From NCBI GenBank assembly GCA_026399835.1, contig JAPLQE010000065.1:62001-126000 (forward strand): a stretch of DNA of 64,000 nt, read 5' to 3'. This document shows, piece by piece, positions 1,022-15,134 of the stretch (its first letter is position 1; each line of letters starts with the position of its first letter). This DNA comes from Burkholderiales bacterium. Lineage in GTDB: Bacteria; Pseudomonadota; Gammaproteobacteria; Burkholderiales; Burkholderiaceae_E. Below the pieces are notes generated by a model. The model saw only the letters and a list, made by a program, of their open reading frames with translations, was not told the DNA's origin and searched no databases. The position numbers were made by a program, and so were the translations under genes.

Positions 1022-2643
1022 CGCCGGGCCTCCGCCGCGAGCGGGAACCGGACCTCGAAACGGGTACCCGGCGGGCCGCCGCGCGACAGCGTGCCGCCGA
1101 GCTGGTCGACCAGGAGCGGGACGAGCTGCAGGCCGAGCGAGGTCGGCGCCTCGGTGTCGAGTCCGGGCGGCAGCCCGACGCCGTCGTCCTCCACCCGGAT
1201 CGACGCGGTGTCGCCGTCGATCGCGATGCCGATGATGACGGTGCCGGCGCGCTCGTCCGGGAAGGCATGGTCGTAGGCGTTGGTGACCAGCTCGTTGACC
1301 AGCAGGCCACAGGGGATCGCGCGCGGCAGCTCGAGATGAAGCGGCACCTCCGCGCCCTCGACGCGCAGCTGCACCGCGGGCGCGCTCGAGCGCTGTCCGT
1401 CGGCGAGCAGCCGGCCGAGTCGCGTGAGGTACTCGCCGACGTGCAGCTGCGCGACGTCGGCATGCTCGTGCAGCAGCTGGTGGGTCAGTGCCATCGCATG
1501 GACGCGGTTGCGGCAGGCCGCGAGCGCGGCGCGCGCCTCGGGCGGCGCACCGCGAGCCTGCAGCGACAGCAGGCTGGTGATCACCTGGAGGTTGTTCTTC
1601 ACGCGATGGTGGACTTCGTCGAGCAGCACGGTCTTCTCGCGCAGCATCGCCTCGAGCTGGCGCTGCTCGGCCTGGCGCGCGCCGCGGTCGACGATCGTCG
1701 CCAGCACCGAGATCACGCCGTCGTGCCGGATCGGCGACAGGCCGATCTCCAGCGGGATCGCGGTGCCGTCCCGGTGCCGGCCGCGCAGGTCGCGTCCCGG
1801 GGCCATCGCGCGGCGCACCGGGGCGTCCAGGTAGCCGCTGCGCAGCGCCGCGTGGCCGGCGCGTGCCGCGTCGGGCAGCAGCGTGTCGATGTTCGTGCCG
1901 ATCAGCTCGCCAGGGCCCCAGCCGAACAGCCGCTCGGCCTGCGGGTTGGCGAGCACGATCCGGCCGTCCGGGTCGGACACCAGCAGTCCGACCGGGGAGG
2001 CCTCGACGACGTCGCGAAAGCGCCGCTCGCCATCGCGCACCGCCTGCTCGGCCCCGCGCCGGCCGTGCACTTCGGCGGCGAGGCGTGCGGCCTCGTCGAC
2101 GGCGCGCGCGCGCCGGTTCGACTCGCGTCGCAGGTACAGCCCGAGCGCCAGCACGGTCAGCGCGCCGACGGCGGCGGCCCCCAGCGGGCGCTGGCTGCGG
2201 GAAGCCGGCTCGAGGGCCTCGGAGCCCGCCACGCGAAGCGTCCTGATCTCGCTGGGCAGCTCGGTCGGCAGCAGCCCGCGCATCAGCGCCTCGACCCCTA
2301 TCGGGCCGCTGCCGCCGCCGAGCATCGGACGGACGGTGTGGCCCGGCGCGGCGCGGCGCATCGTCTCGGAGGTCCTGCCACGGCTCGCCGACCTCAGCAT
2401 GCGCCCGGCCTGCGTCGGCTCGAATCGCCCGACGATCGCGTCCGCCGCGCGCAGCGCGAACCCGAAGCGCTGGACGCGTGCGTCGACCGCAGCGGCGCTC
2501 CGGTCGCTCGCCGCGCCGCGGCCAAGCTGCGCCGCGTGCCCGTCGTCGTCCGCGGCGATCTGCCAGCCGAGCACGGCCAGCCCCAGGACCGCGGCCATCG
2601 CGAGCCATCCCGCCGTCTCGTTCCCCCTGCCCGCCAATGCCAT
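1018..2643 (-). CDS. Membrane PAS sensor histidine kinase (HisKA_2/HWE type)
   Basis: A 541-residue sensor kinase. Hydrophobic segments near residues 12-30 and 152-171 bracket a sensor region of about 120 residues, presumably periplasmic. A PAS domain follows (about 210-320, ASPVGLLVSDPDGRIVLAN). The dimerisation/phosphoacceptor motif DEVHHRVKNNLQVI is near residue 345. The C-terminal ATPase has the N box (LLVNELVTNAYDHAF) and G box (VEDDGVGLPPG). HHRVKNN marks the HisKA_2 class, which often signals in general stress or light responses. It is translationally coupled to the partner regulator downstream. It lies 99 bp after the dehalogenase gene on the same strand, so read-through from the catabolic operon is possible. 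The ligand is unknown and no strong ribosome binding site precedes the chosen ATG. Confidence 0.88.
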   Translation of the reverse strand: MALAGRGNETAGWLAMAAVLGLAVLGWQIAADDDGHAAQLGRGAASDRSAAAVDARVQRFGFALRAADAIVGRFEPTQAGRMLRSASRGRTSETMRRAAPGHTVRPMLGGGSGPIGVEALMRGLLPTELPSEIRTLRVAGSEALEPASRSQRPLGAAAVGALTVLALGLYLRRESNRRARAVDEAARLAAEVHGRRGAEQAVRDGERRFRDVVEASPVGLLVSDPDGRIVLANPQAERLFGWGPGELIGTNIDTLLPDAARAGHAALRSGYLDAPVRRAMAPGRDLRGRHRDGTAIPLEIGLSPIRHDGVISVLATIVDRGARQAEQRQLEAMLREKTVLLDEVHHRVKNNLQVITSLLSLQARGAPPEARAALAACRNRVHAMALTHQLLHEHADVAQLHVGEYLTRLGRLLADGQRSSAPAVQLRVEGAEVPLHLELPRAIPCGLLVNELVTNAYDHAFPDERAGTVIIGIAIDGDTASIRVEDDGVGLPPGLDTEAPTSLGLQLVPLLVDQLGGTLSRGGPPGTRFEVRFPLAAEARR

Positions 2644-2742
2644 CGGTGGTTTCGCCTCGCGGCGCAGGGTGAGGCAAGAGTCGCGCCCGGGTCGGCCGGC
2701 CCGGCGGCGCGTGGCAGCGCGCCGGGGACGCGCGAGGTGGCT

Positions 2743-3678
2743 CTACGTCGGGCGTGGCCCGCCCGCGCCCTCGCTCGCGCGCAGGAACTCGGCGAGCTCG
2801 CGGGCGATCTCCTCACCGGAGTCTTCCTGCAGGAAATGGCCGGCACCCCGGATCCGGCGGTGCGGTCGGTCGCGCGCGCCGGGCACCTGCGCCTGCCAGG
2901 TGCGCTCGCCGCCGCGGGTGATCGGGTCGCGGGTCGAGAACAGCGTGAGGAAGGGCTTGTCCCAGGCGCGAAAGACCGCCCAGGCCCGTTCGTTGGCAGC
3001 GCGCTCCGGATCGTCCGGGCCCCCCGGCACGAAGCCCGGCATCAGGCGCGCGGCGATCTGGTGGCGGGCGTCCGGGAAGGGCGCGTCGTAGGCGGCGCGC
3101 TCGCGCTCGCCGAGCCCGCGCACGCAGCCGGCAGCGACGATGCGGCCGATCGGGAACCACGGGCTCCAGCGCGCGAACGCGCGCCACAGCACGAAGGCGC
3201 GCGGCATCGGCTGCATGCCCGTCGGCAGTCCGCCGTTGGCGAGCACGATCCGATCGAAGCGCTCAGGCGCCTCGGCTGCCATCCGCAGTCCGATCAGCGA
3301 ACCCCAGTCCTGGCAGAACAGCGTGACGCCGCGCAGGTCCGCGGCGCGCAGCCAGGCGGACATCCAGCGCACCTGGCTCGCGTACGAGTACGCCCGTGGG
3401 TCCGCGGGCTTGTCGGAGCGGCCGAAGCCCACGAGGTCGGGGGCGACCGCGCGCAGGCCCGCATCGAGCAGCACCGGGATCATCTTGCGGTAGAGGTACG
3501 ACCAGGTCGGCTCGCCGTGCATCAGCAGCACGACGGGTGCGTCGCGCGGGCCCTCGTCGATGCAGGCGATACGCAGGCCCTCGACCTCGATGTAGCGCGG
3601 CACGTAGGGGAAGCCGGGCAGGTCCGCGAAGCGGGCGTCCGGAGTCCGGAGGATCTCGGCGGCGGCTCGGGTGGGCAT
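2743..3678 (-). CDS. Haloalkane dehalogenase-like alpha/beta hydrolase
   Basis: A 311-residue alpha/beta-hydrolase that closely matches the DhlA-type (subfamily I) haloalkane dehalogenase layout. The oxyanion and strand motif HGEPTWSYLYRKMIP is at 54-68, the nucleophile elbow CQDWG gives Asp124 followed by halide-binding Trp125, a second candidate halide Trp is at 174, the acid is Asp251 and the base His281. These positions nearly coincide with the DhlA pentad (D124, W125, W175, D260, H289). In the family, hydrolysis of a carbon-halogen bond gives alcohol and halide in the cytoplasm. It is the last gene of the sulfatase operon, 10 bp after the metallo-hydrolase stop. Actual halogenated substrates are not shown; related enzymes can be esterases or epoxide hydrolases. 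Confidence 0.85.
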   Translation of the reverse strand: MPTRAAAEILRTPDARFADLPGFPYVPRYIEVEGLRIACIDEGPRDAPVVLLMHGEPTWSYLYRKMIPVLLDAGLRAVAPDLVGFGRSDKPADPRAYSYASQVRWMSAWLRAADLRGVTLFCQDWGSLIGLRMAAEAPERFDRIVLANGGLPTGMQPMPRAFVLWRAFARWSPWFPIGRIVAAGCVRGLGERERAAYDAPFPDARHQIAARLMPGFVPGGPDDPERAANERAWAVFRAWDKPFLTLFSTRDPITRGGERTWQAQVPGARDRPHRRIRGAGHFLQEDSGEEIARELAEFLRASEGAGGPRPT

Positions 3679-3688
3679 GGCGCAGGCC

Positions 3689-4765
3689 TCACCGATGGGT
3701 GAGCGAGATCGCGCGCGAGCCGGCGGGCAGGCTCACGAAGTCGCCGTCGCGCCCGACCCGGATCGGACCGTTCCAGATGCGCGGCGCGTCGCCGAGGAAC
3801 GCGGTCTCGAGCGCCGTCATCGGCAGCGGTGGCACGATGTGGTTCAGCAGCAGATAGCCGACGCGGGCATCGCGCGCGGTCTCGGCCGCCTCCTCGGGCG
3901 TGGCGTGGTAGTCGACGATGTCGGCGAAGAGCTTCACCAGGTTCGGCCGCCGCGCCGCCTCGGCCGCGCGGGCGAGCACCGCCAGCAGCGGCCTGGACAG
4001 GGCCTCGTGCACCAGCAGGTCCGCGCCCTCGGCCTCGCGGCGCACGGCGTCCGAGCGGCGGGTGTCGCCGCTCAGCACGACGGTCCGGTCGCGGTAGCGG
4101 ATCCGGTAGCCGAGCGCCGGATGCACCGGTGCGTGATCGACCGCGAAGGCGACCACCTCGAGCTCCCCGTCGGCGATCACCACCGCGCGCCCGTCGGCGC
4201 CGAGCACGATCGGGCGGGCGGTGCCGCCCGCACCGCCCGGCGGCACGATCGACTCGCCGTGATGCGCGACCCGGTAGCCGCGGTCGGCGGCGTAGACACG
4301 CCCGAGGCCGTCGACCACCGCCTCCACCCCCGCCGGCCCGTGCACCGGGGCGGGCGAGGTGCGCGCGCCCGCCACCCAGCGCTGCAGCAGCAGTTCGCCC
4401 AGGCCGTCGAGATGGTCGGAGTGCAGGTGGGTGAGCAGCACCTCGTCGACGCGTCCGGCCTCGAAGCCCAGCCGCGCGAGTCCGCGCAGTGCGCCGCTGC
4501 CGGCATCGAAGACCAGCAGCCGCCGGCCGGCCAGGACCAGCGTGCACGGACCGCCGCGACGCTCGTCCGGAAACGGCGAGCCCGCGCCGCACAGGCCCAC
4601 GTGCAGCCCGTCGGGCAGCGCGCCGACCGGATCGGCCGACAGGCGGGCGAGCGCGCCGCGCTCGACGATCGCCAGGGCGATGGGGGTGCGCAGCATCCAG
4701 GCGAGGGCCGCGAGGGCTGCGAGCGCCAGGAGTGCGGCGGCGAGACGGCGCACGTGTCGGGTCAT
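3689..4765 (-). CDS. Metallo-beta-lactamase-fold hydrolase (RNase Z/AtsA-like), membrane-anchored
   Basis: A 358-residue protein with an N-terminal hydrophobic anchor (about 8-24) followed by an MBL domain. The di-zinc signature THLHSDHLDG is intact (HxHxDH). Later ligands are in VDHAPVHPALGY, SGDTRRSD and the late LLLNHIVPP. The overall plan resembles the tRNase Z-like branch of the fold, which also contains the AtsA-type arylsulfatases. A sulfatase or sulfoesterase role is therefore possible given the neighbours, but this is inference. The ATG overlaps the sulfatase stop by 4 bp (ATGA). The same reading frame stays open far upstream, but that is antisense-like noise; the coupled ATG is the sensible start. 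Predicted location: the periplasmic face of the inner membrane. Confidence 0.82.
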   Translation of the reverse strand: MTRHVRRLAAALLALAALAALAWMLRTPIALAIVERGALARLSADPVGALPDGLHVGLCGAGSPFPDERRGGPCTLVLAGRRLLVFDAGSGALRGLARLGFEAGRVDEVLLTHLHSDHLDGLGELLLQRWVAGARTSPAPVHGPAGVEAVVDGLGRVYAADRGYRVAHHGESIVPPGGAGGTARPIVLGADGRAVVIADGELEVVAFAVDHAPVHPALGYRIRYRDRTVVLSGDTRRSDAVRREAEGADLLVHEALSRPLLAVLARAAEAARRPNLVKLFADIVDYHATPEEAAETARDARVGYLLLNHIVPPLPMTALETAFLGDAPRIWNGPIRVGRDGDFVSLPAGSRAISLTHR

Positions 4766-6639
4766 GACGGGCTCGCCGGGGCGTTCAGCGCGGCCGCGGT
4801 GCGCCGGCGGCGCCGCACGCGCCAGACCCCCGCCGCCAGGACGCCGAGCAGCACGGCGAGCGCCGGGCCGCCGTAGGCAGGCAGCCAGTAGTTGTGGATC
4901 GTGTTGATCGTCACCTGTCGGGAGGCGTCGTAGCCGGCAGGCATCGGCAGCACGTGATGCTCGCGCGCCCAGGTCTCGTAGGCCGCCCGCATCGCGGCGA
5001 AGGCCTCGGGCAGGCGGTCCTTGAGATCGAGCGTCTCGCCGGGGTCGGCGCGCAGGTCGTGCAGCCGCCACTGGCCGTCGCCGAGCGGCGGCAGGCTGCG
5101 GGTGAGCTTCAGGTCGCCCCGATAGAGCGCCTCGTCGCCCGACAGCTCGTAGCCGAGCGTGTCGTCCGGACCGCGCACCGCACGGCCCGGGTCCTGCAGC
5201 GCCGCGACCAGGCTGCGCCCCGACATCGGCTCGATCGGGCGCCCCTCGCGCTGCGGGGCCGGTGGCGCGACGCCGGCCAGTTCGAGCAGTGTCGGTGCGA
5301 GATCGGTCACATGGGTCAGGCCGTGATGCAGCGCGCCGGCGGGCGCGCCGCGTACGCCCGACACGATCAGCGGCACCCGCGTGCCGCCTTCGCCGCCGAC
5401 GAACTTGTAGCCCGCCAGAGGCGAGGCCGCGGCGCTCGCCCAGCCCGGGCCCATGATCGCGTACGCGCCCTCTCCGCCGAGCCGGTCGGTCGACTGCGAG
5501 TACTGGGTCCAGAGCCAGGGCTGCGCGGCCGCGTAGTCCGAGCCCTCCGGGCCGTTGTCGGACAGGAAGACGAACACCGTGTCGTCGTAGAGCCCGCGGG
5601 CCTTCAGGTGGGCGACGAGCCGGCCGACGTGGTGGTCCATCGCCTCGGCCATCGCCGCATAGACTTCCATGCTGCGCGCCTGATGGCGGCGCTCCGACGC
5701 GGACAGCGCGCTCCAGTCGCGGGTGGTCGGCATCCGGGCCATGGGCGCGCCGGCGGGGACCGTGCCGAGCGCGACCGCCCGATCGCGGCGGGCGAGGCGC
5801 AGCGCGTTCCAGCCGGCGTCGTAGCGGCCGGCCTGCCGCTCGACGAACTCGCGCGGGGCCTGCAGCGGCGCGTGGTTGGCCTGGAAGGCGACGAGCGCGA
5901 AGAAGGGCCGGTCGCTCGCCGCGTCGGCCTCCAGGTAGGCGATCGTCCGGTCGACGAACCACTCCGACGAGTAGAAGCGGGCCGGCATCGACGCGGCTCG
6001 CCCGTCCTCGAACCACTCCACCGTGGCCGAGTGGGGCAGGTAGCGCTTGGTCGGCTCCCAGTTGTCCGAGCCGGTGTCGCCCTGGACGATCGAGCGGTCG
6101 AACCCGCGCCGGTCGGGCAGGTTGTGCGGCTCGGATCCGACGTTCCACTTGCCGGCCGCGTAGGTCCGGTAGCCGGCTTCCTGCAGCAGCGTCGGCAGCG
6201 TGATCACGTTCGTGTCGAGCGAGCCGAGGTAGCCGCGCCGCCCCATGTGCTCGCGCGGCATCGACTCGCGCAGGTTGCCGACGCCTGCACGGTGGTGCTC
6301 GACGCCGGTCAGCAGCATCGCGCGGGTCGGCGCGCAGGAGGCGGCCACGTGGAAGTTGGTGAAGCGCGTGCCCCGCGCGGCGAGCGCATCGAGGTGAGGT
6401 GTGGGGATCTCGCCGCCGAAGGCGCCGACGTCGGTGAAGCCCCAGTCGTCGGCGACGAGGACGACGATGTTGGGGCGCGTGCGCGGGGCGCCCGCGATCG
6501 AGGCGGCCGCAGCCGGCTCCGCGGCGTCGGCGGATCGGGCGGGCGTGGCGAGCGTCAGGCAGACGGCGAGTGGGGCGAGGGCGGCGAGGGCGGCGGCCAT
6601 GACCCGGCCCGCGGCCCGTGCGAGGTGTCCGACGGTCAT
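4762..6639 (-). CDS. Sulfatase with N-terminal signal/anchor and C-terminal membrane segment
   Basis: A 625-residue type I sulfatase of the alkaline phosphatase superfamily. After a signal or anchor segment (about 12-36) comes the metal-binding start PNIVVLVADDWGF (Asp64-Asp65). The formylglycine motif SCAPTRAMLLTG has Cys102, Pro104 and Arg106, the canonical CxPxR core. The distal metal site is FLSDNGPEGSDY. A hydrophobic helix near the C-terminus is followed by several arginines, so the catalytic domain is probably periplasmic and tethered. It hydrolyses a sulfate ester to alcohol plus sulfate once Cys102 is oxidised to formylglycine. No formylglycine-generating enzyme is in the window. It overlaps both neighbours by 4 bp inside a four-gene operon. 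The substrate is unknown. Confidence 0.92.
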   Translation of the reverse strand: MTVGHLARAAGRVMAAALAALAPLAVCLTLATPARSADAAEPAAAASIAGAPRTRPNIVVLVADDWGFTDVGAFGGEIPTPHLDALAARGTRFTNFHVAASCAPTRAMLLTGVEHHRAGVGNLRESMPREHMGRRGYLGSLDTNVITLPTLLQEAGYRTYAAGKWNVGSEPHNLPDRRGFDRSIVQGDTGSDNWEPTKRYLPHSATVEWFEDGRAASMPARFYSSEWFVDRTIAYLEADAASDRPFFALVAFQANHAPLQAPREFVERQAGRYDAGWNALRLARRDRAVALGTVPAGAPMARMPTTRDWSALSASERRHQARSMEVYAAMAEAMDHHVGRLVAHLKARGLYDDTVFVFLSDNGPEGSDYAAAQPWLWTQYSQSTDRLGGEGAYAIMGPGWASAAASPLAGYKFVGGEGGTRVPLIVSGVRGAPAGALHHGLTHVTDLAPTLLELAGVAPPAPQREGRPIEPMSGRSLVAALQDPGRAVRGPDDTLGYELSGDEALYRGDLKLTRSLPPLGDGQWRLHDLRADPGETLDLKDRLPEAFAAMRAAYETWAREHHVLPMPAGYDASRQVTINTIHNYWLPAYGGPALAVLLGVLAAGVWRVRRRRRTAAALNAPASPS

Positions 6640-7985
6640 CGTTCGTGCTCCGTGTGCAGGCCGGCCTCGAGCGCATCGACGACTGCCCACAGGCGGTCCT
6701 GGCCCCAGACCGCGGTGTCGCCGACCGCGAAGGCGGGCACGCCCCACAGCCCGCGTTCGAACAGCGCGGCCCGGTTGTGCTCGGCCTCGGCGCGCCAGCG
6801 GGTATCGGCCAGTGCCTCGCGGCACGCTGACCAGGTGAGCCCGGCGCGTTCGGCGATCGTACGCAGGCCGCGGTCGCTGCCGGCGTCCAGCCCCTCGGCC
6901 CAGGTGCCGCGCATGAACGACAGCAGGAAGGCTTCGCCCAGCGCCTCGGCCTGCGCGTGGTGCATCAGCGCGAGCCCGCGCTCGACCGGGCGGCCGACCG
7001 GATCGACCAGGCGACCGAAGGGGATGCCGCGCACGAAGGCCTCGCGCGCGGCGTCGGCGGCGATGTACGTGCGCTTGGCACGCGGCACCGGCAGCCCGCG
7101 CATGACCATCGGCAACAGGCCGCGCAGGCGCAGCGGCACGCCGGCCTGTCTCGCGAGCGCCAGCACCCGCGGCGCGGCGATCGCCGAGTACGGGCTGCGC
7201 AACGAGAACCAGAACTCGATCGGACCCGGATGCCGGGCGATCACCGGTCCGGCGGGGTCGGCGCCGGGCTCGAACATCAGCCCGCTCGTCCCGGCGCGCG
7301 CCGCTCCCAGGTCCTGCAGCCGGCGCTCGAGGTGATGCAGCCGGTCGATGCCCCAGTACCACTCGCCATCGAGATGGAAAGTCGCGCCCAGGTAATGGCC
7401 GAGCCGGCGACGCAGGGCCGCGGACGCGGCGAGGTGGGCGGTCACGGTCGGGTCGGCGGCGACAGCGCTCGCGGTGGCGGCAGCGCTCGCCATGGTGGCC
7501 ACGGTCGCGCCGTTCGCGGGTGCCGCCGTGCGCGCCGACTCCCAGGCCGCTCGTGTGAGCGTCGCCGCGGATGCGACGAAGCGGCCCGCCTCGGCCGCCG
7601 CGACCAGCCGCGCCGTGGCATCGGCCAGCGCGTGCGCGCCGGGCTGCGCGCCCGGATCCTCGAAGTCGAGCCCGTGCCTGCGCGCGAGCAGCGCCGCATC
7701 GCGCCGCGACCAGGCCACCAGCCGCTCGCGCTCGGGGGCGACCGCGTCCTGCGGCGCCCCGACCACGTGCGGCACGACGTCCAGGTCGTAGCGGCGCACC
7801 AGGTCGGGCAGGGCGCCGGCGGCCAGCAGCGAGTACGGATCGTCGGGCTGGTGGAAGTAGTCGACGCGCAGCCGCGCGCCGCGCGCCAGGCGCGCCCGCT
7901 CGGCCCGAGCCCGGCGCCGCTGCAGGCGCTCGCGCGACAGCAGCCAGGCCGAGATCGGCGGGGACAGCAGACCCTTCAGCGACAC
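6636..7985 (-). CDS. Duplicated DsbA/HCCA-isomerase-like thioredoxin-fold protein
   Basis: The protein holds two thioredoxin-fold domains of the 2-hydroxychromene-2-carboxylate isomerase/GST-kappa type. Domain 1 begins at RLRVDYFHQPDDPYS and domain 2 at PIEFWFSLRSPYSAIA. Domain 2 is the better preserved and ends with ALFERGLWGVPAFAVGDTAVWGQDRL, a typical cis-Pro and substrate-end segment. Members isomerise aromatic degradation intermediates with glutathione, but many act on unknown substrates. The GTG at 7985 (protein starting VSLKGLL, 449 aa) is chosen. The first ATG, at 8051, sits inside the regulatory dyad at 8037-8061, where transcription probably begins. No strong ribosome binding site supports the GTG, so the start remains uncertain. 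First gene of the operon, divergent from tetR. Confidence 0.8.
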   Translation of the reverse strand: MSLKGLLSPPISAWLLSRERLQRRRARAERARLARGARLRVDYFHQPDDPYSLLAAGALPDLVRRYDLDVVPHVVGAPQDAVAPERERLVAWSRRDAALLARRHGLDFEDPGAQPGAHALADATARLVAAAEAGRFVASAATLTRAAWESARTAAPANGATVATMASAAATASAVAADPTVTAHLAASAALRRRLGHYLGATFHLDGEWYWGIDRLHHLERRLQDLGAARAGTSGLMFEPGADPAGPVIARHPGPIEFWFSLRSPYSAIAAPRVLALARQAGVPLRLRGLLPMVMRGLPVPRAKRTYIAADAAREAFVRGIPFGRLVDPVGRPVERGLALMHHAQAEALGEAFLLSFMRGTWAEGLDAGSDRGLRTIAERAGLTWSACREALADTRWRAEAEHNRAALFERGLWGVPAFAVGDTAVWGQDRLWAVVDALEAGLHTEHER

Positions 7986-8036
7986 GTCGCCGCAACGGGA
8001 AGGGCGGCCGTTCGCCCGCGCATCGACCGGGTCCGG

Positions 8037-8061
8037 TACACTTCCATACATAAGTGTATGG
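8037..8061. promoter_or_regulatory. Nested dyad operator between tetR and the sulfatase operon
   Basis: Two overlapping perfect inverted repeats: TACACTT-N8-AAGTGTA at 8037-8058, and CCATACA-N4-TGTATGG at 8044-8061. The site contains -10-like hexamers on both strands and lies between divergent tetR and the isomerase/sulfatase operon. This is the usual layout for a TetR autoregulator that also represses its neighbour. The second dyad recurs with one mismatch at 11368-11385. Confidence 0.72.
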
Positions 8062-8101
8062 AGCGTGTGCCCTGCCCGGGCACGCCGACCGGAGGACGAG
8101 C

Positions 8102-8824
8102 ATGGCGCGGCAGACTAGAGGGGGTGCGGCCTCGAAGGGTCGCGCGGCGGCGCGCACCGTGAAGCCCGCGCGCCGCGGCGACGCCGGCGAGTCGCCGCGC
8201 CTCGGCCCGGACCAGTGGCTCGATGCGGCCCACGCGGCCGTGGTGGCCGGCGGCTTCGGGAACGTCCGGGTGCTCCCGCTCGCTCAGGCGCTCGGCATCA
8301 CCCGAGGCAGCTTCTACTGGCACTTCGCCGATCATGCCGAGCTGGTGGCCGCGCTGATCGGACGCTGGCATCGACGGGAGATCGAGGCCGACCGTGCGCT
8401 CGAGGCGGCGTCGACGGACGATCCGCTCGCCGACCTGGTGGCGGTGCTCGACGCGGCGCTCGCGCGCGGCGGCAGCGACCTCGCCGACCTGCGCTTCGAG
8501 CTCGCGCTGCGCAGCCACGGCCGGCAGGACCCGGCGGTGGCCGAGATGCTCGCCGAGGTCGACGCCCTGCGCCTCGGCCTGATCGCCGCGAAGTACCGCC
8601 GGATCCTGGGCGGGGATGCGGATGCTGCGGAGGACCTCGCCGCCCTGCTGTACGTTGCTGTCGCCGGAGCCCACCAGGCGCTGGCTCGCCCGGGCAGCGA
8701 TGCGGCCGTCGCCACCTACCTGCGCGACGTGATCGCCGAACACCTGATCCTGCGGCCCGCGCAGCCCGGCGCGCCGCAGCGTGCCGCGATCGGGCGCAGG
8801 CGCGGGCGCGGTGCGCTCAGTTGA
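8102..8824 (+). CDS. TetR-family transcriptional regulator
   Basis: A 240-residue TetR-type repressor. The ATG at 8102 follows a strong ribosome binding site, GGAGGA at 8091-8096. After a basic N-terminal tail the helix-turn-helix reads VLPLAQALGITRGSFYWHF, followed by a helical ligand domain. The basic tail of about 45 residues (KGRAAARTVKPARRGD) is longer than usual. It is divergent from the isomerase-sulfatase-MBL-dehalogenase operon and separated from it by a perfect dyad. Its 3' end overlaps the convergent second sulfatase gene by 8 bp. A matching dyad at the DJ-1/sulfatase promoter suggests that it controls both operons. The inducer is unknown, plausibly the substrate or a product of the pathway. 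Confidence 0.88.
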   Translation: MARQTRGGAASKGRAAARTVKPARRGDAGESPRLGPDQWLDAAHAAVVAGGFGNVRVLPLAQALGITRGSFYWHFADHAELVAALIGRWHRREIEADRALEAASTDDPLADLVAVLDAALARGGSDLADLRFELALRSHGRQDPAVAEMLAEVDALRLGLIAAKYRRILGGDADAAEDLAALLYVAVAGAHQALARPGSDAAVATYLRDVIAEHLILRPAQPGAPQRAAIGRRRGRGALS

Positions 8825-10484
8825 TCCAGTAGGTGAAGTCATCGTCCGGGCCCGAAGGCTGGTCGAGTGTCCGGTCGATCGCCACGGGGAGTTCGATGAA
8901 CGAGCGCCACGCCGGCGGCGGCATGTCCGCGTGGTGGGCCTGCAGCAGCGCGCGCAGCCGCGCCACCTGCTCGGGGCGCGTGGCCGACAGGTCGGTGCGC
9001 TCGGTCGGATCCGATGCGAGGTCGAAGAGCCAGGTGCGCCGGGGTCGCTGTGAGTCGATCAGCTTCCAGTCGCCGTCGCGCACCGATCGCAGGCTGCCGT
9101 CGCGCCAGAACAGCGTGCGCGCCGGCGCCTTCGGCGCGGCCTCGGCCAGCAGCGGCAGCAGGTTCTTGCCGTCGAGGGGGCGGTCGGCGGGGAGTGCCGC
9201 GCCCGCCGCCGCCGCTGCGGTCGGCAGCAGGTCGATGCCCGAGACCGGTGACTGCAGGCGGGTGCCGGCCGCGATGCGCCCTGGCCAGCGGGCCACGAAG
9301 GGCACGCGCACGCCGCCCTCGAAGAGCGTCAGCTTCCAGCCGCGGAACGGCGTGTTGAGCTCCGGCAGGCCGATGTAGCCCGGTGCGCCGTTGTCGCTGG
9401 TGAAGACCACCAGCGTGTTCTCGTCCAGCCCCTCGTCGCGCAGCGTCTGCATCACGCGGCCCACGCTGCGATCGAGCGAGCGGATCATCGCGCCGTACAC
9501 CCGCCGGCGGTGGTCGCCGCGATCGGGCAAGGCGTCATAGTCGGCCCGGCTCGCCTGCAGCGGCGTGTGGATGCCCCAGTGCGCCAGGTACAGGAAGAAC
9601 GGGCGATTGCGGTTGGCGCGGATCGCGGCCACCGCCTCGTCGGTGAACCAGTCGGTCAGGTAGCCGGCAGGCTCGAACCAGTCGCCCGCGTTGTAGCTCG
9701 CCGCCCAGCGCATGTTCGGCCACAGGAACCGGTCGATCGGATCGAAGTCCTGCTTCGAGTTGACCACGGCCGGGCTGTTCTCGGGCAGGTAGAGCCCGCT
9801 CTCCATGAAGAGCGATTCGGCGAAGCCCTGCGCATTCGGCCGCATCTGCGGCGTGCTGCCCAGGTGCCACTTGCCGATGTGCATCGTGTGATAGCCGCGC
9901 GCGGCGAGCACCTCGGCGATCGTGCGCTCCGACGCCGGCATCCCGAGCTCGCTGAACTTCGGCGCGGCCGCGGCGGCCTCGCGGTCGATGACCACCGGAT
10001 GCGGCCGCCCGGGGGCGGCATACAGGTCGGCCGCGACCCGGGCCATCGCGCCCGGCGTGGGCGTGAACTCGACGCCGAAGCGCCAGGGATAGCGGCCCGT
10101 CAGCAGCCCTGCGCGCGACACGGTGCAGACCGCGCTCACCGCGTAGCCGTGGTCGAAGCGCACGCCCTCGCGCGCCAGCGAGTCGATGTGGGGCGTCGCC
10201 GCGCCCCAGTCCGCGTGCCCGCCGCCGTAGGTGGTCACGTCGTTGCGGCCGAGGTCGTCCGCGAGGATGACGATGATGTTCGGCGGCCTGGCCGACGGCG
10301 GTGCCTGCGGCGTCGCCGGTCCGGCCTGCCAGGGAACCGGCCGGTTGGGCGCACGGGGGTGGACGAGATCGGTGTACCAGCCGAGCGAGTGGCGCAGGAT
10401 CAGCAGGCGGTTGGCCCAGCCGAGTGCGCCGAGGGCGACGACGAGCAGCAGCCCGCCGACGAGCCACCTGCGGCGCGCGCTCAT
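8817..10484 (-). CDS. Sulfatase with non-canonical CTVSR active-site motif
   Basis: A 555-residue sulfatase-superfamily protein. It has an N-terminal membrane anchor (about 7-25), the metal-binding PPNIIVILADDLGRND (Asp76-Asp77), the modification site AVCTVSRAGLLTGRYP and the distal metal motif VFTSDNGAPGY. The motif begins at Cys120. Where the canonical core is CxPxR (Ala is sometimes tolerated at +2), this protein has Val122, encoded by GTG. Its closest-looking relatives are arylsulfatase A or N-acetylgalactosamine-6-sulfatase-type enzymes. It is coupled to the upstream DJ-1 gene by a 4-bp overlap. It may act in the periplasm together with the other sulfatase 2 kb away. Whether Cys120 becomes formylglycine is an open question. 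Confidence 0.88.
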   Translation of the reverse strand: MSARRRWLVGGLLLVVALGALGWANRLLILRHSLGWYTDLVHPRAPNRPVPWQAGPATPQAPPSARPPNIIVILADDLGRNDVTTYGGGHADWGAATPHIDSLAREGVRFDHGYAVSAVCTVSRAGLLTGRYPWRFGVEFTPTPGAMARVAADLYAAPGRPHPVVIDREAAAAAPKFSELGMPASERTIAEVLAARGYHTMHIGKWHLGSTPQMRPNAQGFAESLFMESGLYLPENSPAVVNSKQDFDPIDRFLWPNMRWAASYNAGDWFEPAGYLTDWFTDEAVAAIRANRNRPFFLYLAHWGIHTPLQASRADYDALPDRGDHRRRVYGAMIRSLDRSVGRVMQTLRDEGLDENTLVVFTSDNGAPGYIGLPELNTPFRGWKLTLFEGGVRVPFVARWPGRIAAGTRLQSPVSGIDLLPTAAAAAGAALPADRPLDGKNLLPLLAEAAPKAPARTLFWRDGSLRSVRDGDWKLIDSQRPRRTWLFDLASDPTERTDLSATRPEQVARLRALLQAHHADMPPPAWRSFIELPVAIDRTLDQPSGPDDDFTYWIN

Positions 10485-11314
10485 CGCGGCACCCCGCCGG
10501 CGAGCTCGAGCATCCGCTGGGCCGTCTCCTCGCCGTCATTCTGGTTCTGTCCGGTGACGAGCCGGCCGTCGACGACGACATGCCGCGCGAACAGGTCGAG
10601 CCAGGCGTGCGCGCATTCGTAGCGCGCGCCGGCCGCCCGCAGCTCGCGCTCCGGATGCTGAGGCGTGCTGCGGATGCCCAGCTGGGCGACCTGCCGGTCG
10701 GTGACCGCGGTGAGCCGCCGGCCTCGCACCAGCGGCTCGCCGTCGGTGTCGCGGGCCTGGAGCAATCCGAGCGGGCCGTGGCAGACCCCGCCGACCACCC
10801 GGCCCGCGGCCCAGGCCGCGCCGATCCCGCGACCCAGTGCGGTCGACGCCCCGAGGTCGTAGGCCGCGCCCCAGCCGCCGGCGAGGAAGACCAGATCGTA
10901 GGCCGTGAAGTCGAGGTCATCGACGCGCAGTGATCGTTCGGCGAGCCCGCGCGCCTGCGGATCGGCCAGGAAGCGACGATCGGAGTCCGACACGACGAAC
11001 CATCGGAAGGACTCCGGATCCACCGGGATCGGGCCACCCGCGATGCTCGCGAGATCGACCCGCAGGCCGGCGTCCTTGAACGCGTAATAGGGTGCCGTGA
11101 GCTCGGATGCGAACACGCCGGTCGGTCGACCCTTCGGCCCCGGTACCGCATGACTGGTGGTGACGATGAGCGCGCGCGCGCCCGGCAGCGCCCGCTTCGG
11201 TCCGCGGTAGGGCGCGTGCAGCCCGAGCGCCCGGAGCAGCGCGGGCAGTCCGAACCGGAGCCCCACCCCGGCGACGGCGACGGCTGCGGCAACAGGGATC
11301 AGGACGGCGAGCAC
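10481..11314 (-). CDS. DJ-1/PfpI family (type 1 glutamine amidotransferase-like) protein with N-terminal anchor
   Basis: A 277-residue protein starting at GTG 11314, five bases after GGAG. An ATG at 11398 is in frame but lies upstream of the predicted transcription start, so it is rejected. Residues 2-20 form a hydrophobic signal or anchor. The fold is the Hsp31/YDR533C-like branch: FASELTAPYYAFKDAG with the acidic partner Glu71, and the nucleophile elbow GGVCHGPLG with Cys178. Members act as glyoxalase III/chaperones or as hydratases and isomerases on small molecules. The membrane anchor is unusual. First gene of a two-gene operon with the second sulfatase, driven by a promoter that carries the shared dyad. 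Confidence 0.82.
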   Translation of the reverse strand: MLAVLIPVAAAVAVAGVGLRFGLPALLRALGLHAPYRGPKRALPGARALIVTTSHAVPGPKGRPTGVFASELTAPYYAFKDAGLRVDLASIAGGPIPVDPESFRWFVVSDSDRRFLADPQARGLAERSLRVDDLDFTAYDLVFLAGGWGAAYDLGASTALGRGIGAAWAAGRVVGGVCHGPLGLLQARDTDGEPLVRGRRLTAVTDRQVAQLGIRSTPQHPERELRAAGARYECAHAWLDLFARHVVVDGRLVTGQNQNDGEETAQRMLELAGGVPR

Positions 11315-11367
11315 GGCGGCTCCGGTCTCCGGAGTGTGACGGGCGCGCGGACTGCATCGACCGCGAG

Positions 11368-11385
11368 CCGTACACCTCTGTATGG
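11368..11385. promoter_or_regulatory. Second copy of the TetR-type dyad (CCGTACA-N4-TGTATGG)
   Basis: The left arm CCGTACA (11368-11374) and right arm TGTATGG (11379-11385) form a 7-4-7 dyad with one mismatched pair. Arms and spacing match the perfect dyad at 8044-8061. It lies just downstream of the predicted transcription start of the DJ-1/sulfatase operon, a typical repressor position. Confidence 0.68.
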
Positions 11386-11394
11386 GGTGCGCGA

Positions 11395-11424
11395 ACACTA
11401 GAGCAGCGGTCCGCGCGGTGTCAA
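11395..11424 (-). promoter_or_regulatory. Sigma70-type promoter of the DJ-1/sulfatase operon
   Basis: On the minus strand a perfect -35 TTGACA (11424-11419) is followed after 18 bp by TAGTGT (11400-11395). The predicted start near 11388 is immediately before the dyad at 11368-11385 and 74 bases before the GTG start codon. Confidence 0.55.
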
Positions 11425-11473
11425 CCCGATGCGCCGTCGGCCACCCGCATCGCGGGCGGTCGGTGCCGGTGCG

Positions 11474-14404
11474 TCAGCCGCAGGTGCCGATCCAGCCGCA
11501 GGTGCCGCAGCGGTCGCAGCCGTCGACCTTCGCGAGCGTGGGATGGTGGCACTCGGGGCACATGCGTCCGGTGACTCGCGGCGCCTCGGGCCGGGCTGCG
11601 CTCGGTGTCGCGCCGCCGTCGGCGGCAGGACCCGAGGCGGCGAAGGCCCGCATCGGGTCGAGCGGTCTGCCGTCCGCATCGAGGATGCCGAGCATCTGGT
11701 AGCGATGCAGCAGGAGCCGGGCGAGGTAGGCGATCGTCGACGGCCAGACCCGGCTCTTGGTGTCGCCCGGCGCCGGCGCCCAGAAGTCGCCGCGTGGCTC
11801 GGCGAAGTCGACGAGCTTGGCGAGCTTGCGTCCGATCCAGGCGGCGTCGACGATCCGCATGTCGATCGACAGCAGCTTGGTGAGCCCGTCGAAAGCGCGC
11901 GGGTAGCTGCCCGCGAGCCAGACCGAGTACGGGCGGCGCGTGCCGTCGGGCAGCGTCAGCTCCTTGACGATCATATGGATGTCGTCGCCGGTGGCCGGGT
12001 TGGCGACGTCGACCGACCAGGACATCGTACCGTCGGTGCCGGTCTTGGGCTCCTTGCGCGAGATCAGCGCGTCGAGCATCGGCGTGGCGGCGGGCGGCTC
12101 CGCGAACAGGCCGAGCGTCTCGCAGCGGTGACGGACGATGCGCGCGAGCCCGGCCACCAGCGAGGGCATCGGCTCGATGCGCCCGGGCGCGAGCTCGAGC
12201 CCGAAGCCGTCCTGCCCGGCGGTGGCGGCGAGCGAGTCGAGTTTCTTCGCCACCCAGGCGGTGTCGTCGCACCGCAGGTCCATCGACAGCGTCTTGGCGA
12301 TCGCGGCGAGCCCGCGCGGCTGCTCGTTGCCGGTGACCCAGACCTCGAAGGGTCGCGCGCGGTGGGCCTGCTCGACATGGCCGACGACCACCGCGAAATC
12401 CCCCGCCGGATGCTCGACGAGCAGCGTCCACGACGGATTGCCGCCGGGCAGGGCCGGCCGGTCGGGCCAGCGCAGCGAGGCCAGCGCCGGTGCCGGGATC
12501 GCCTTGAGCGCAATGCGCCGGTCCGCATCGGACTGCTGGAGGTCGTCCGGCGCGAGGCGCGAGGCGGGCGGCGCCGTCCCCGGTGCCGGGTCGACCGACA
12601 GCACCGAGCCGGTGACCTCGTTCGGCCGGTAGATGGTGATGCCCTTGAGGCCGAGGCGCCAGGCGTCGGTGTACAGCGACGCGGTCTCCTCGAGGGGCGC
12701 CTGCGCCGGCACGTTGACGGTCTTGGAGATCGCTGCATCGATGTAGGGCGCAACCGCGGCCACCATCTTCAGGTGCGCCTGCGCGCTCATCTCGAGTGCC
12801 GACACGAAGGCATCGGGCAGCGCGGCGGTGCCGGCCTCGAAGGCCGCGTCGAAGGCCTGCGGATCGGGCTGGCGGGCGCGCCACAGCCGGAACGCATGGT
12901 CGTACACGCGGAACGCCTGGCGGCTGCCGTCGGCCATCCGCTTCATCCGCGTGTAGGCCCACGAGAAGGCCGGCTCGATGCCGTTGGAGGCATTGTCGGC
13001 GAAGGCCAGGGTGATCGTGCCGGTCGGCGCGATCGACAGCAGGTGCGAGTTGCGCACGCCGTGGCGCGCGATCTCGGCCTTCAGGTCCGCCGGCAGCGTG
13101 GACGCGAAGCGCGGGGCCTCGAGGTAGCGCGCGGCGTCGAACAGCGGGAAGGGCCCGAGCGTGCGGGCGAGCGCGACCGAGGCGCGGTAGGCCTCGTGGC
13201 ACATGAACTCGGCGATGCGCGAGGCGGTGGCGCGGCCGGCCTCGGAGTCGTAGCGCTGGCCCAGCAGGATCAGCGCGTCGCCCAGGCCGAGGAAGCCCAG
13301 GCCGATGCGGCGCTTGGCGCGCGACTCCGCGTCCTGCTGCGGCAGCGGCCACAGCGTCACGTCGAGCACGCGGTCGAGGCACTCGACGCCGGTGTGCACG
13401 AGGCGGCGCAGCCGTTCCCAGTCGATGTCGGCATCGGGCTCGAAGGGGCGGCGCACCACGCGCGTGAGGTCGATGGAGCCGAGGTCGCAGCAGCCGTAGG
13501 CGGGGAGCATCTGTTCCGCGCACGGATTGCTCGCGACGATCGTCTCGCAGTACGACAGGTTGTTGCGCGCGTTGACGGTGTCGATGAAGAGCACGCCCGG
13601 CTCGGCGTGGCCGTGCGCGGAGCGCATCACGAGGTCCCACAGCGCGCGGGCGCGCACGGTGCGGTAGACCCAGAGCCCGTCGTCGCGGCGACGCGCGCCC
13701 GGGACGCCCTCGGAGGGCTCGGCCCGGTGGACGAGCTCGAAGTCGGCGTCGGCCTCGACCGCGCGCATCAGCGCGTCGGTGACCGCGACGCTGACGTTGA
13801 ACTGCGTGAGCTCGCCCGGCGTGCGCTTGGCGGTGACGAAGGCCTCGATGTCGGGATGGTCGCAGCGCAGCACGCCCATCTGCGCGCCGCGCCGGGCGCC
13901 CGCGCTCTCGACGGTCTTGCACATCGCATCGAACACCCGCATGTAGCTGACCGGGCCCGAGGCGCGCGACGCCGTGCCGCGCACGATCGCGCCGGCCGGG
14001 CGGATCGACGAGAAGTCGTAGCCGACGCCGCCGCCGCGGCGCATGGTCTCGGCCGACTGCTCGAGCGCGCGCATGATGCTGGGCACGCCGTTGTCCTCGC
14101 CCGCCATGTGATCGCCGATGGGCTGCACGAAGCAGTTGATCAGCGTCGCCTGGATGCCGGTGCCGGCCGCCGACGCGATGCGCCCGCCCGGCACGAAGCC
14201 CTCGCGCATCGCATCGGCGAAGCGGGCGGCCTGCGCGTCGTCGCGGGCGAGCGCCCGGGCGGTGCGCCCGAGCACCTCGGCGGCGGTGCGCTCGTCGCGC
14301 TTGGCGTACTTCTCGAGCAGGACCTCGGTGGCGACTTCCTGGGGCGGAAGCTCGGCGTCGGGGCGAGGATCGGCGGCCGGGTCGGGGTGGGTGTCTCGCT
14401 TCAT
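11474..14404 (-). CDS. nrdJ: Adenosylcobalamin-dependent (class II) ribonucleoside-diphosphate reductase
   Basis: A 976-residue class II reductase that converts ribonucleotides to deoxyribonucleotides with a B12 radical and does not need oxygen. The catalytic barrel includes [38 protein letters not shown] and the phosphate-binding [12 protein letters not shown]. After the barrel come two TSCPD-type segments (about 660-750 and 800-880). A C-terminal zinc-ribbon-like cluster follows (CPECHHPT then CDRCGTCG), which usually delivers reducing equivalents. An internal antisense frame is open for more than 1000 codons but is only a high-GC shadow. The gene stands alone. I see no cobalamin riboswitch in the roughly 200 bases upstream. 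No class Ia reductase is in the window, so its physiological share is unknown. Confidence 0.95.
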
Positions 14405-14603
14405 GGGGCGGCTCGTCGGAATGTCACGACCATCCTACGCCGGCAGTGGCTCGCCACGTGCGCCACCCGGCGGGGACCGCGCGCCGATCGGTCCGTCCGG
14501 TCGCGGGCATCGGGCGATACCGTCTGCGGCGCGGCCGCCGGGCGCGGCCGCCGGGCGCGGCATCCCGGGGGCGTTGCCGGCACCGGCGGGCTATCATCCC
14601 GGC

Positions 14604-15134
14604 ATGCCGCGTCCCTACTCGTCCCTGCGCCGTTCGCGCGCCCCGCGAACCGCCGGGCTGCTGGCCGCGATCGGCGCGGGCAGCCTCGCCGCCCTGGCGG
14701 TGGCCCTGGTGGCCCAGCACGCCTTCGACATCCAACCGTGTCCCTGGTGCGTGATCCAGCGGATCGTGCTGATCGCGGTCGCCGCGGTCGCGCTGGTCGC
14801 CGCACTGGCCGCGCGCGCGGCCCCCCGGGGCGCTGGCGCCGTCGGCGGCGTGGCGCTGCTCGCGCTGGCCGCGGGCGGGGCGCTCGCCGCGTGGCACCAG
14901 CACACCGTGGCCGCCAAGACGCTCTCCTGCGCCTTCACCTGGGCCGACCGCACGCTGATGTCGCTGCAGCTCGATGCCTGGCTGCCTTCGCTCTTCAAGG
15001 TCGGCGCCACCTGCGCGGACGCCTCGAAGGCGACCCTGCTCGGGCTGCCCTTCGAGGTCTGGGGCGCCGCCTGGTTCACGCTGGTGGCGATCGGTGCGCT
15101 CGCGATCCTCGTGCGCGTCTCGCGGCGCCGCTGA
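14604..15134 (+). CDS. dsbB: Disulfide bond formation protein B
   Basis: A 176-residue inner-membrane protein with four hydrophobic helices. The first periplasmic loop carries QPCPWCV (Cys46, Cys49). The second loop carries the pair Cys109 (TLSCAF) and Cys137 (ATCADAS), which is the DsbB redox arrangement. It reoxidises DsbA and passes electrons to quinone. Length is normal for the family. A -10-like TATCAT (14592-14597) sits just before the ATG at 14604, so the transcript has a short or absent leader. It is transcribed away from nrdJ and converges on the OxyR gene. The partner DsbA is not in the window. Confidence 0.93.
   Translation: MPRPYSSLRRSRAPRTAGLLAAIGAGSLAALAVALVAQHAFDIQPCPWCVIQRIVLIAVAAVALVAALAARAAPRGAGAVGGVALLALAAGGALAAWHQHTVAAKTLSCAFTWADRTLMSLQLDAWLPSLFKVGATCADASKATLLGLPFEVWGAAWFTLVAIGALAILVRVSRRR

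Follow-up and report, generated by a model that had tools for sequence, protein, structure and literature searches.

The locus considered here raises the question of whether a single TetR-family TF controls two operons, each containing a sulfatase, and what the encoded enzymes are for. Our analysis has shown that the window (the whole analyzed stretch of DNA, 64 kb long) carries a predicted TetR regulon, real and well conserved, that is ordinary in its kind of regulation and has an uncharacterized enzyme set found in several classes. The reading we favor, with a probability of about 80%, combines a self-regulating TetR acting at two operators, O1 and O2, its release by a ligand, and a catabolic enzyme set for a lipophilic sulfate ester. 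All features are listed in Table 1.

Table 1. Positions of the genes, putative operators and putative promoter in the window.
Feature	Positions	Strand	Basis
Dhl, HLD-I (DhlA-type) haloalkane dehalogenase	2743..3678	-	NF002043, 422 bits (cut-off 265); pentad
MBL-fold hydrolase, arylsulfatase-like, N-terminal hydrophobic segment	3689..4765	-	8gyg, 1.4e-23
SulA, type I arylsulfatase, CAPTR, hydrophobic segments at both ends	4762..6639	-	PF00884; 1hdh
Iso, duplicated DsbA/kappa-class, HCCA-isomerase-like protein, 449 aa, GTG start	6636..7985	-	PF01323 on the C-terminal half; halves align; Foldseek
O1, putative operator	8044..8061	none	dyad with perfect arms separating tetR from the Iso operon
TetR-family regulator, 240 aa	8102..8824	+	PF00440 (TetR_N, helix-turn-helix), 34.5 bits (cut-off 24)
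SulB, sulfatase with CTVSR, not CxPxR, N-terminal hydrophobic segment	8817..10484	-	PF00884; carrageenan exo-sulfatase
DJ-1/PfpI protein, Hsp31/glyoxalase III-like, N-terminal hydrophobic segment, GTG start	10481..11314	-	PF01965; 4p5p
O2, putative operator	11368..11385	none	directly downstream of the DJ-1/SulB promoter
Putative DJ-1/SulB promoter, TTGACA-N18-TAGTGT	11395..11424	-	sequence; TTGACA invariant in 4/4 aligned genomes

Dyads, promoter and gene layout in the window

The initial annotation had described a perfect dyad and a second one with a single mismatch, and the sequence confirms both, including their positions. O1 reads CCATACATAAGTGTATGG, with perfect arms, and is extended by T8043 and A8062 to a 20-bp dyad; O2 reads CCGTACACCTCTGTATGG, with one mismatch between the arms. 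With up to two mismatches allowed, these are the sole sites of the CCRTACA-N4-TGTAYGG type in the window, while shuffled windows contain 0.12 sites on average, two sites being reached in one of 100 shuffles. The genome-wide scan that the initial annotation had proposed retrieved the same two dyads and no other exact match in 4,954,742 bases (4.95 Mb), where the reversed control pattern had no exact matches. Three one-mismatch sites of this genome (C23, C26 and C80), considered as additional regulon members, were rejected, all of them being inside predicted ORFs.

As had been suggested, O1 is located between tetR and the isomerase-sulfatase-MBL-dehalogenase operon, tetR being divergent from Iso at a distance of 116 bp; tetR and SulB are convergent, with an 8-bp overlap. 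A second inverted repeat, TACACTT-N8-AAGTGTA (8037-8058), shifted by 5 bp, overlaps and shares O1, and two dimers may bind there at once. The gene calls stand with corrected starts (GTG at 7985 for Iso, ATG at 8102 for TetR, GTG at 11314 for DJ-1), and the packing is operon-like, with junctions of -4 bp for Iso-SulA, SulA-MBL and DJ1-SulB, and +10 bp for MBL-Dhl. A PAS/histidine-kinase-like gene on the minus strand (1018-2643), 99 bp downstream of Dhl, could be read together with the Dhl operon; Dhl is followed by such a gene in G008 (86%) and in G011 (71%, partly on the contig) as well.

The proposed promoter sequence is present just before O2: on the minus strand, TTGACA (11424-11419) is followed by an 18-bp spacer, TAGTGT (11400-11395) and then 9 bp to O2. 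However, TAGTGT is a weak -10 box (three of six positions match), and because of this the scan for consensus sigma-70 promoters lists none in 2000-15000. The terminator scan of the same interval yielded none either, and the Rfam search at gathering scores gave no matches.

The enzymes and their clustering in other genomes

SulA (PF00884, 211.7 bits) with its CAPTR motif belongs to type I (formylglycine) sulfatases, the best solved match being arylsulfatase 1hdh, which we take to be from Pseudomonas. SulB (PF00884, 176 bits) is closest to the solved carrageenan exo-sulfatases and deviates from CxPxR in the CTVSR region (residues 119-130), while the remaining active-site blocks are kept. Among 13 rows of SulB homologues, two have CTVSR (G011, G007), two CTPSR (G010, G005) and nine CAPSR, so that the proline is present in 11 of 13. 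PF03781, a family wider than FGE, scores above the cut-off on four contigs of the genome.

The initial description of the MBL protein as tRNase Z-like had to be dropped, as its best RNase Z score is 171.7 bits against the NCBIfam equivalog cut-off of 363. Its nearest solved relative is the MBL arylsulfatase 8gyg (aligned at residues 59-342), and the HxHxDH metal motif is kept as HLHSDH; by these two features the protein is predicted to be arylsulfatase-like. The structure model of this protein (pLDDT 41) was not used.

For the dehalogenase, predicted to be DhlA-like, the NF002043 score (Table 1) is accompanied by the complete HLD-I pentad, D124, W125, W165, D251 and H281 (alignment to 4mj3 and 6f9o, W165 being presumably the pentad Trp), which is kept in all nine full-length rows from the genus. 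Sequence and pentad are common to Dhl and HLD-I dehalogenases 4mj3, 6f9o and 1b6g, while Dhl differs from them in being linked to sulfatases by operon and operator. Iso has the kappa-class DsbA-like fold, its C-terminal half matching HCCA isomerases, and the duplication of this protein is seen both in the alignment of its halves (80 columns, probability 84%, E 7.5e-6) and in the model with two similar domains (pLDDT 77.3), for which Foldseek retrieves 3fz5, 2imd and GST kappa. The chains of 2imd and 3fz5, found by sequence as well as by fold, are not duplicated, unlike Iso. No match to Iso was found in NCBIfam, and the plasmid search with Iso yielded 79 records, all with identity below 60% and none reaching 80% query coverage. 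The DJ-1 protein (PF01965, 49.5 bits, cut-off 26.6) matches 4p5p and glyoxalase III/Hsp31 chains and retains the CHG motif with the nucleophile Cys (five of five sequences). The suggestion that two of the six enzymes are anchored sulfatases holds insofar as SulA and SulB have N-terminal hydrophobic segments, but MBL and DJ-1 have them too, making four of six; Dhl, Iso and TetR have none.

The enzyme set extends beyond the regulon, as clusters of SulA, SulB, MBL, Iso and DhlA-type genes are found in other proteobacterial classes. Besides the genome of the window, Iso was found in 11 of 369 genomes sampled from the class, and MBL in 22 of 398 sampled from the phylum; the surroundings were fetched for seven and 13 of these, respectively. 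At least one further module gene is nearby in eight of the 13 MBL loci and two of the seven Iso loci, with none in the other 10, the gene orders being, for example, SulA-SulB-MBL-Iso (L115, L119), MBL-Dhl-SulB-SulA (L112) and SulB-Iso-Dhl-SulA (L129). Of the 13 MBL genomes, 11 have SulB (E up to 1e-100; 13 copies in all), and in five of these 11 it is located within 10 kb of MBL, against a roughly estimated chance expectation below 0.1. In a second genus of the family (L038), SulB-Iso-DJ1-MBL adjoin FadD, and a 40% Dhl homologue has HGN in place of HGE; this TetR is absent there, and hence the module occurs without the regulator, as in G007.

Two further clusters were observed. In another class, an FGE-like ORF (by eye; L113:14780-15736) near an MBL-Iso-Dhl cluster has a TetR-like ORF on one side and a nitronate-monooxygenase-like gene on the other. 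MBL and Iso are adjacent in L035 (G076), from another family of the order, and the cluster contains a 33% SulA homologue together with DUF3604-, HupE-, PpiC-, YCF48- and MMPL-like genes (by eye).

Neighbors in related clusters include FadD-, sterol-desaturase-, GST- and SDR-like genes (by eye), and together with the sulfatases they point to a lipophilic sulfate ester, which is our best guess for the substrate. A role in the degradation of sulfated or halogenated compounds, as initially proposed, may be given somewhat more weight due to the MBL arylsulfatase match, the full HLD-I pentad and the fact that the cluster recurs in other classes.

It is possible, though less likely, that TetR governs a stress or detoxification response, e.g. 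to a hydrophobic toxic compound, instead of dedicated catabolism. This would agree with the similarity of DJ-1 to Hsp31/glyoxalase III chains, with the GST- and SDR-like genes in related clusters, and with the HTH domain of TetR, which is closest to those of the efflux repressors TtgR, AcrR and MtrR. The latter similarity is, however, local and below the NCBIfam equivalog cut-offs, and the genes predicted to be controlled by TetR encode enzymes, no efflux pump being recognized in the cluster. Moreover, the presence of an MBL arylsulfatase-like enzyme along with two sulfatases indicates sulfate esters, and in other classes the clustered set is found among different neighbors.

Conservation of the regulator and the dyad

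The genus is represented by 12 genomes, including that of the window. All ten exact sites found in them are inside the cluster, while with one mismatch allowed the pattern is present in 11 of 12 genomes (10 exact and 21 one-mismatch sites), compared to five sites for the reversed control. The 21 one-mismatch sites are divided into ten at promoters of cluster genes or adjoining ones and 11 elsewhere, seven of the latter being inside aroE-like or thiolase-like ORFs (named by eye). These recurrent sites (four genomes for aroE-like, three for thiolase-like) were read as coding conservation and rejected; the one-mismatch site in G007 (C78) is close to a contig end.

TetR with at least 58% identity adjoins Iso in nine of the 12 genomes (the window included), and in eight of these nine the Iso/tetR intergenic region contains the dyad with at most two mismatches (two in G010), no recognizable dyad being found between Iso and tetR in G011. 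The G004 contig begins inside Iso, tetR not being visible there. The DJ-1/SulB promoter is accompanied by the exact dyad in all four genomes (G000, G005, G010, G011) that combine a close TetR with the presence of this promoter on the contig, G005 having SulB without DJ-1; the G008 contig starts inside SulB. Enzymes of G007 are found with neither the dyad nor a close TetR; this TetR is absent from the g12 cluster.

In G001, G002, G003, G004 and G006, an operon of MBL, dehalogenase and SulB-type genes is located off the Iso-locus contig and is preceded by the dyad in all five cases (one mismatch in four, two in G006); therefore, when the genes move, the operator travels along. According to the alignment, the -10 box of the relocated promoter (TTGACG/TTGACT-N17-TAATGT) is inside the dyad. 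In four of these genomes (G001, G002, G003, G006), the operon located past tetR contains genes for a predicted hydrolase, which looks PF10118-like by eye, and for a small membrane protein; the dyad is over the -10 box of its promoter (TTGACA/TTGACG-N17-TACTGT/TAGTGT), with a second dyad just upstream in G001. In the genus alignment generally, the dyad is over the -10 box or directly after the promoter. Comparison of relatives, also proposed in the initial annotation, shows the genes to be partly scattered, yet the dyad goes with them, G011 and G007 being the exceptions; this conservation supports one predicted TetR regulon joining the six enzymes.

A matrix trained solely on the sites of G001-G004 and G006 gives 31.3 for 8044 and 20.4 for 11368, ranks 1 and 2 in the 64-kb window, the next place scoring 1.4, while the best scores of 20 column-shuffled matrices are 1.5 to 16.6. 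When each clade was held out, the known sites ranked first, at least 8 points ahead, in the fetched loci of the nine other genomes with sites; no score above 7.6 was obtained in the fetched loci of G007 (L029, L074) and G009 (L075).

Altogether, 150 relatives were searched for the dyad. The 138 genomes outside the genus contain two exact sites, in G029 and G037, compared to three exact sites in three genomes for the reversed control. Each of these dyads marks the start of a tetR gene whose product is 34% identical (27% over the full alignment) and has the same TRGSFYWHF helix. In these loci (L134:3155-3172, L135:496-513), from another genus of the family, there is an additional partial dyad upstream, and the genes divergent from tetR are CoA-ligase- and enoyl-CoA-hydratase-like; this is a separate predicted regulon with the same operator.

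These data bear on an alternative that we consider quite unlikely, namely, that the dyad, though a real operator, is recognized by some other regulator, the neighboring TetR having other targets. The recognition helix is the same in the TetRs of G007 and G009 (compared without G003 and G006), while their fetched surroundings contain no dyad, and hence the helix alone is not proof of dyad reading. On the other hand, the dyad is beside tetR in eight of the nine genus genomes with tetR next to Iso, and both exact sites in the 138 genomes outside the genus are at a tetR homologue. Very improbable is a chance origin of O2 with O1 alone being functional, for, despite the arm mismatch, the one shuffle with two sites and the one shuffled matrix of 20 that reached 16.6, the exact dyad is at the same promoter in four of four genomes, adjoining the invariant TTGACA, and a matrix derived from other genomes places O2 second in 64 kb.

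Predicted regulation and its biological meaning

From the observed sites, gene structure, promoter geometry, conservation and family assignments, we infer TetR binding, repression, ligand, substrate and order of steps as follows. TetR would be a local repressor, also of its own gene: a dimer bound to CCRTACA-N4-TGTAYGG at O1 would shut off tetR and the Iso-SulA-MBL-Dhl operon, while at O2 it would block RNA polymerase immediately beyond the transcription start of DJ1-SulB by steric repression. A small lipophilic ligand, probably the substrate or a pathway intermediate, would release TetR, so that all six enzymes would be made together. Anchored SulA, SulB and MBL would then remove sulfate at the membrane, and the HLD-I dehalogenase and the kappa-class isomerase would act on the desulfated product. 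Against this joint explanation are the lack of O1 in G011, the mismatches of O1 in G010, the exceptions of G007 and g12, the 11 of 21 one-mismatch sites located elsewhere, the shuffled matrix with a score of 16.6 compared to 20.4 for O2, the recognition helix shared by the TetRs of G007 and G009 in the absence of a nearby dyad, and the weak -10 boxes.

The proposed mechanism appears to be most like that of MbdR, a TetR-type repressor of the 3-methylbenzoyl-CoA regulon in Azoarcus sp. CIB, which, in the consulted part of that report, has several operators in one catabolic cluster, its own promoter included, spanning start points and -10 boxes (PMC4424350). The half-site ATAC...GTAT is also similar, the MbdR operator being ATAC-N10-GTAT, while the same tetranucleotides are 6 bp apart in the window, and the regulon enzymes differ (PMC4424350, same part). 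The SLF module for alkyl sulfates from Psychrobacter pP62BP1 resembles our system in having a repressor-controlled sulfatase operon and lipid-type enzymes, but its regulator is of the AraC/XylS type, it has one alkyl sulfatase, and its content, as described in the excerpt consulted, includes no dehalogenase, MBL arylsulfatase-like or isomerase genes (PMC10779009). Acesulfame sulfatase from Bosea/Chelatococcus is, by its description in the part consulted, an MBL-family enzyme acting as a sulfatase, but it is paired with an amidase on a transposon (PMC10413263).

A bolder reading, which we regard as a long shot, is that the regulon is a route for dismantling chlorosulfolipid-type molecules. Chlorosulfolipids are chlorinated alkyl sulfates of freshwater algae. 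The sulfatases would strip the sulfates, the HLD-I dehalogenase would take chlorine off the chain, and the chain would be handed to beta-oxidation by the isomerase together with FadD-type enzymes. The idea comes only from the sulfatase/dehalogenase pairing and from the habitat of relatives (L021-L023), Burkholderiales metagenome bins with hints of a pond and of Loclat, taken as a lake. Neither the gene set nor a bacterial chlorosulfolipid pathway is described in the titles and abstract openings of the openly licensed literature, among the matches listed. If true, this reading would provide a natural job for the HLD-I enzyme and explain one switch for sulfatases and dehalogenase.

The biological function of many characterized haloalkane dehalogenases is stated as unknown (PMC3938430, in the part consulted). 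Here, operon structure and a conserved operator link an HLD-I enzyme with sulfatases, with an MBL arylsulfatase-like enzyme and with a duplicated isomerase of the kappa class. With one repressor and two short DNA sites as the starting point, the inducer and the substrate can be tested directly.
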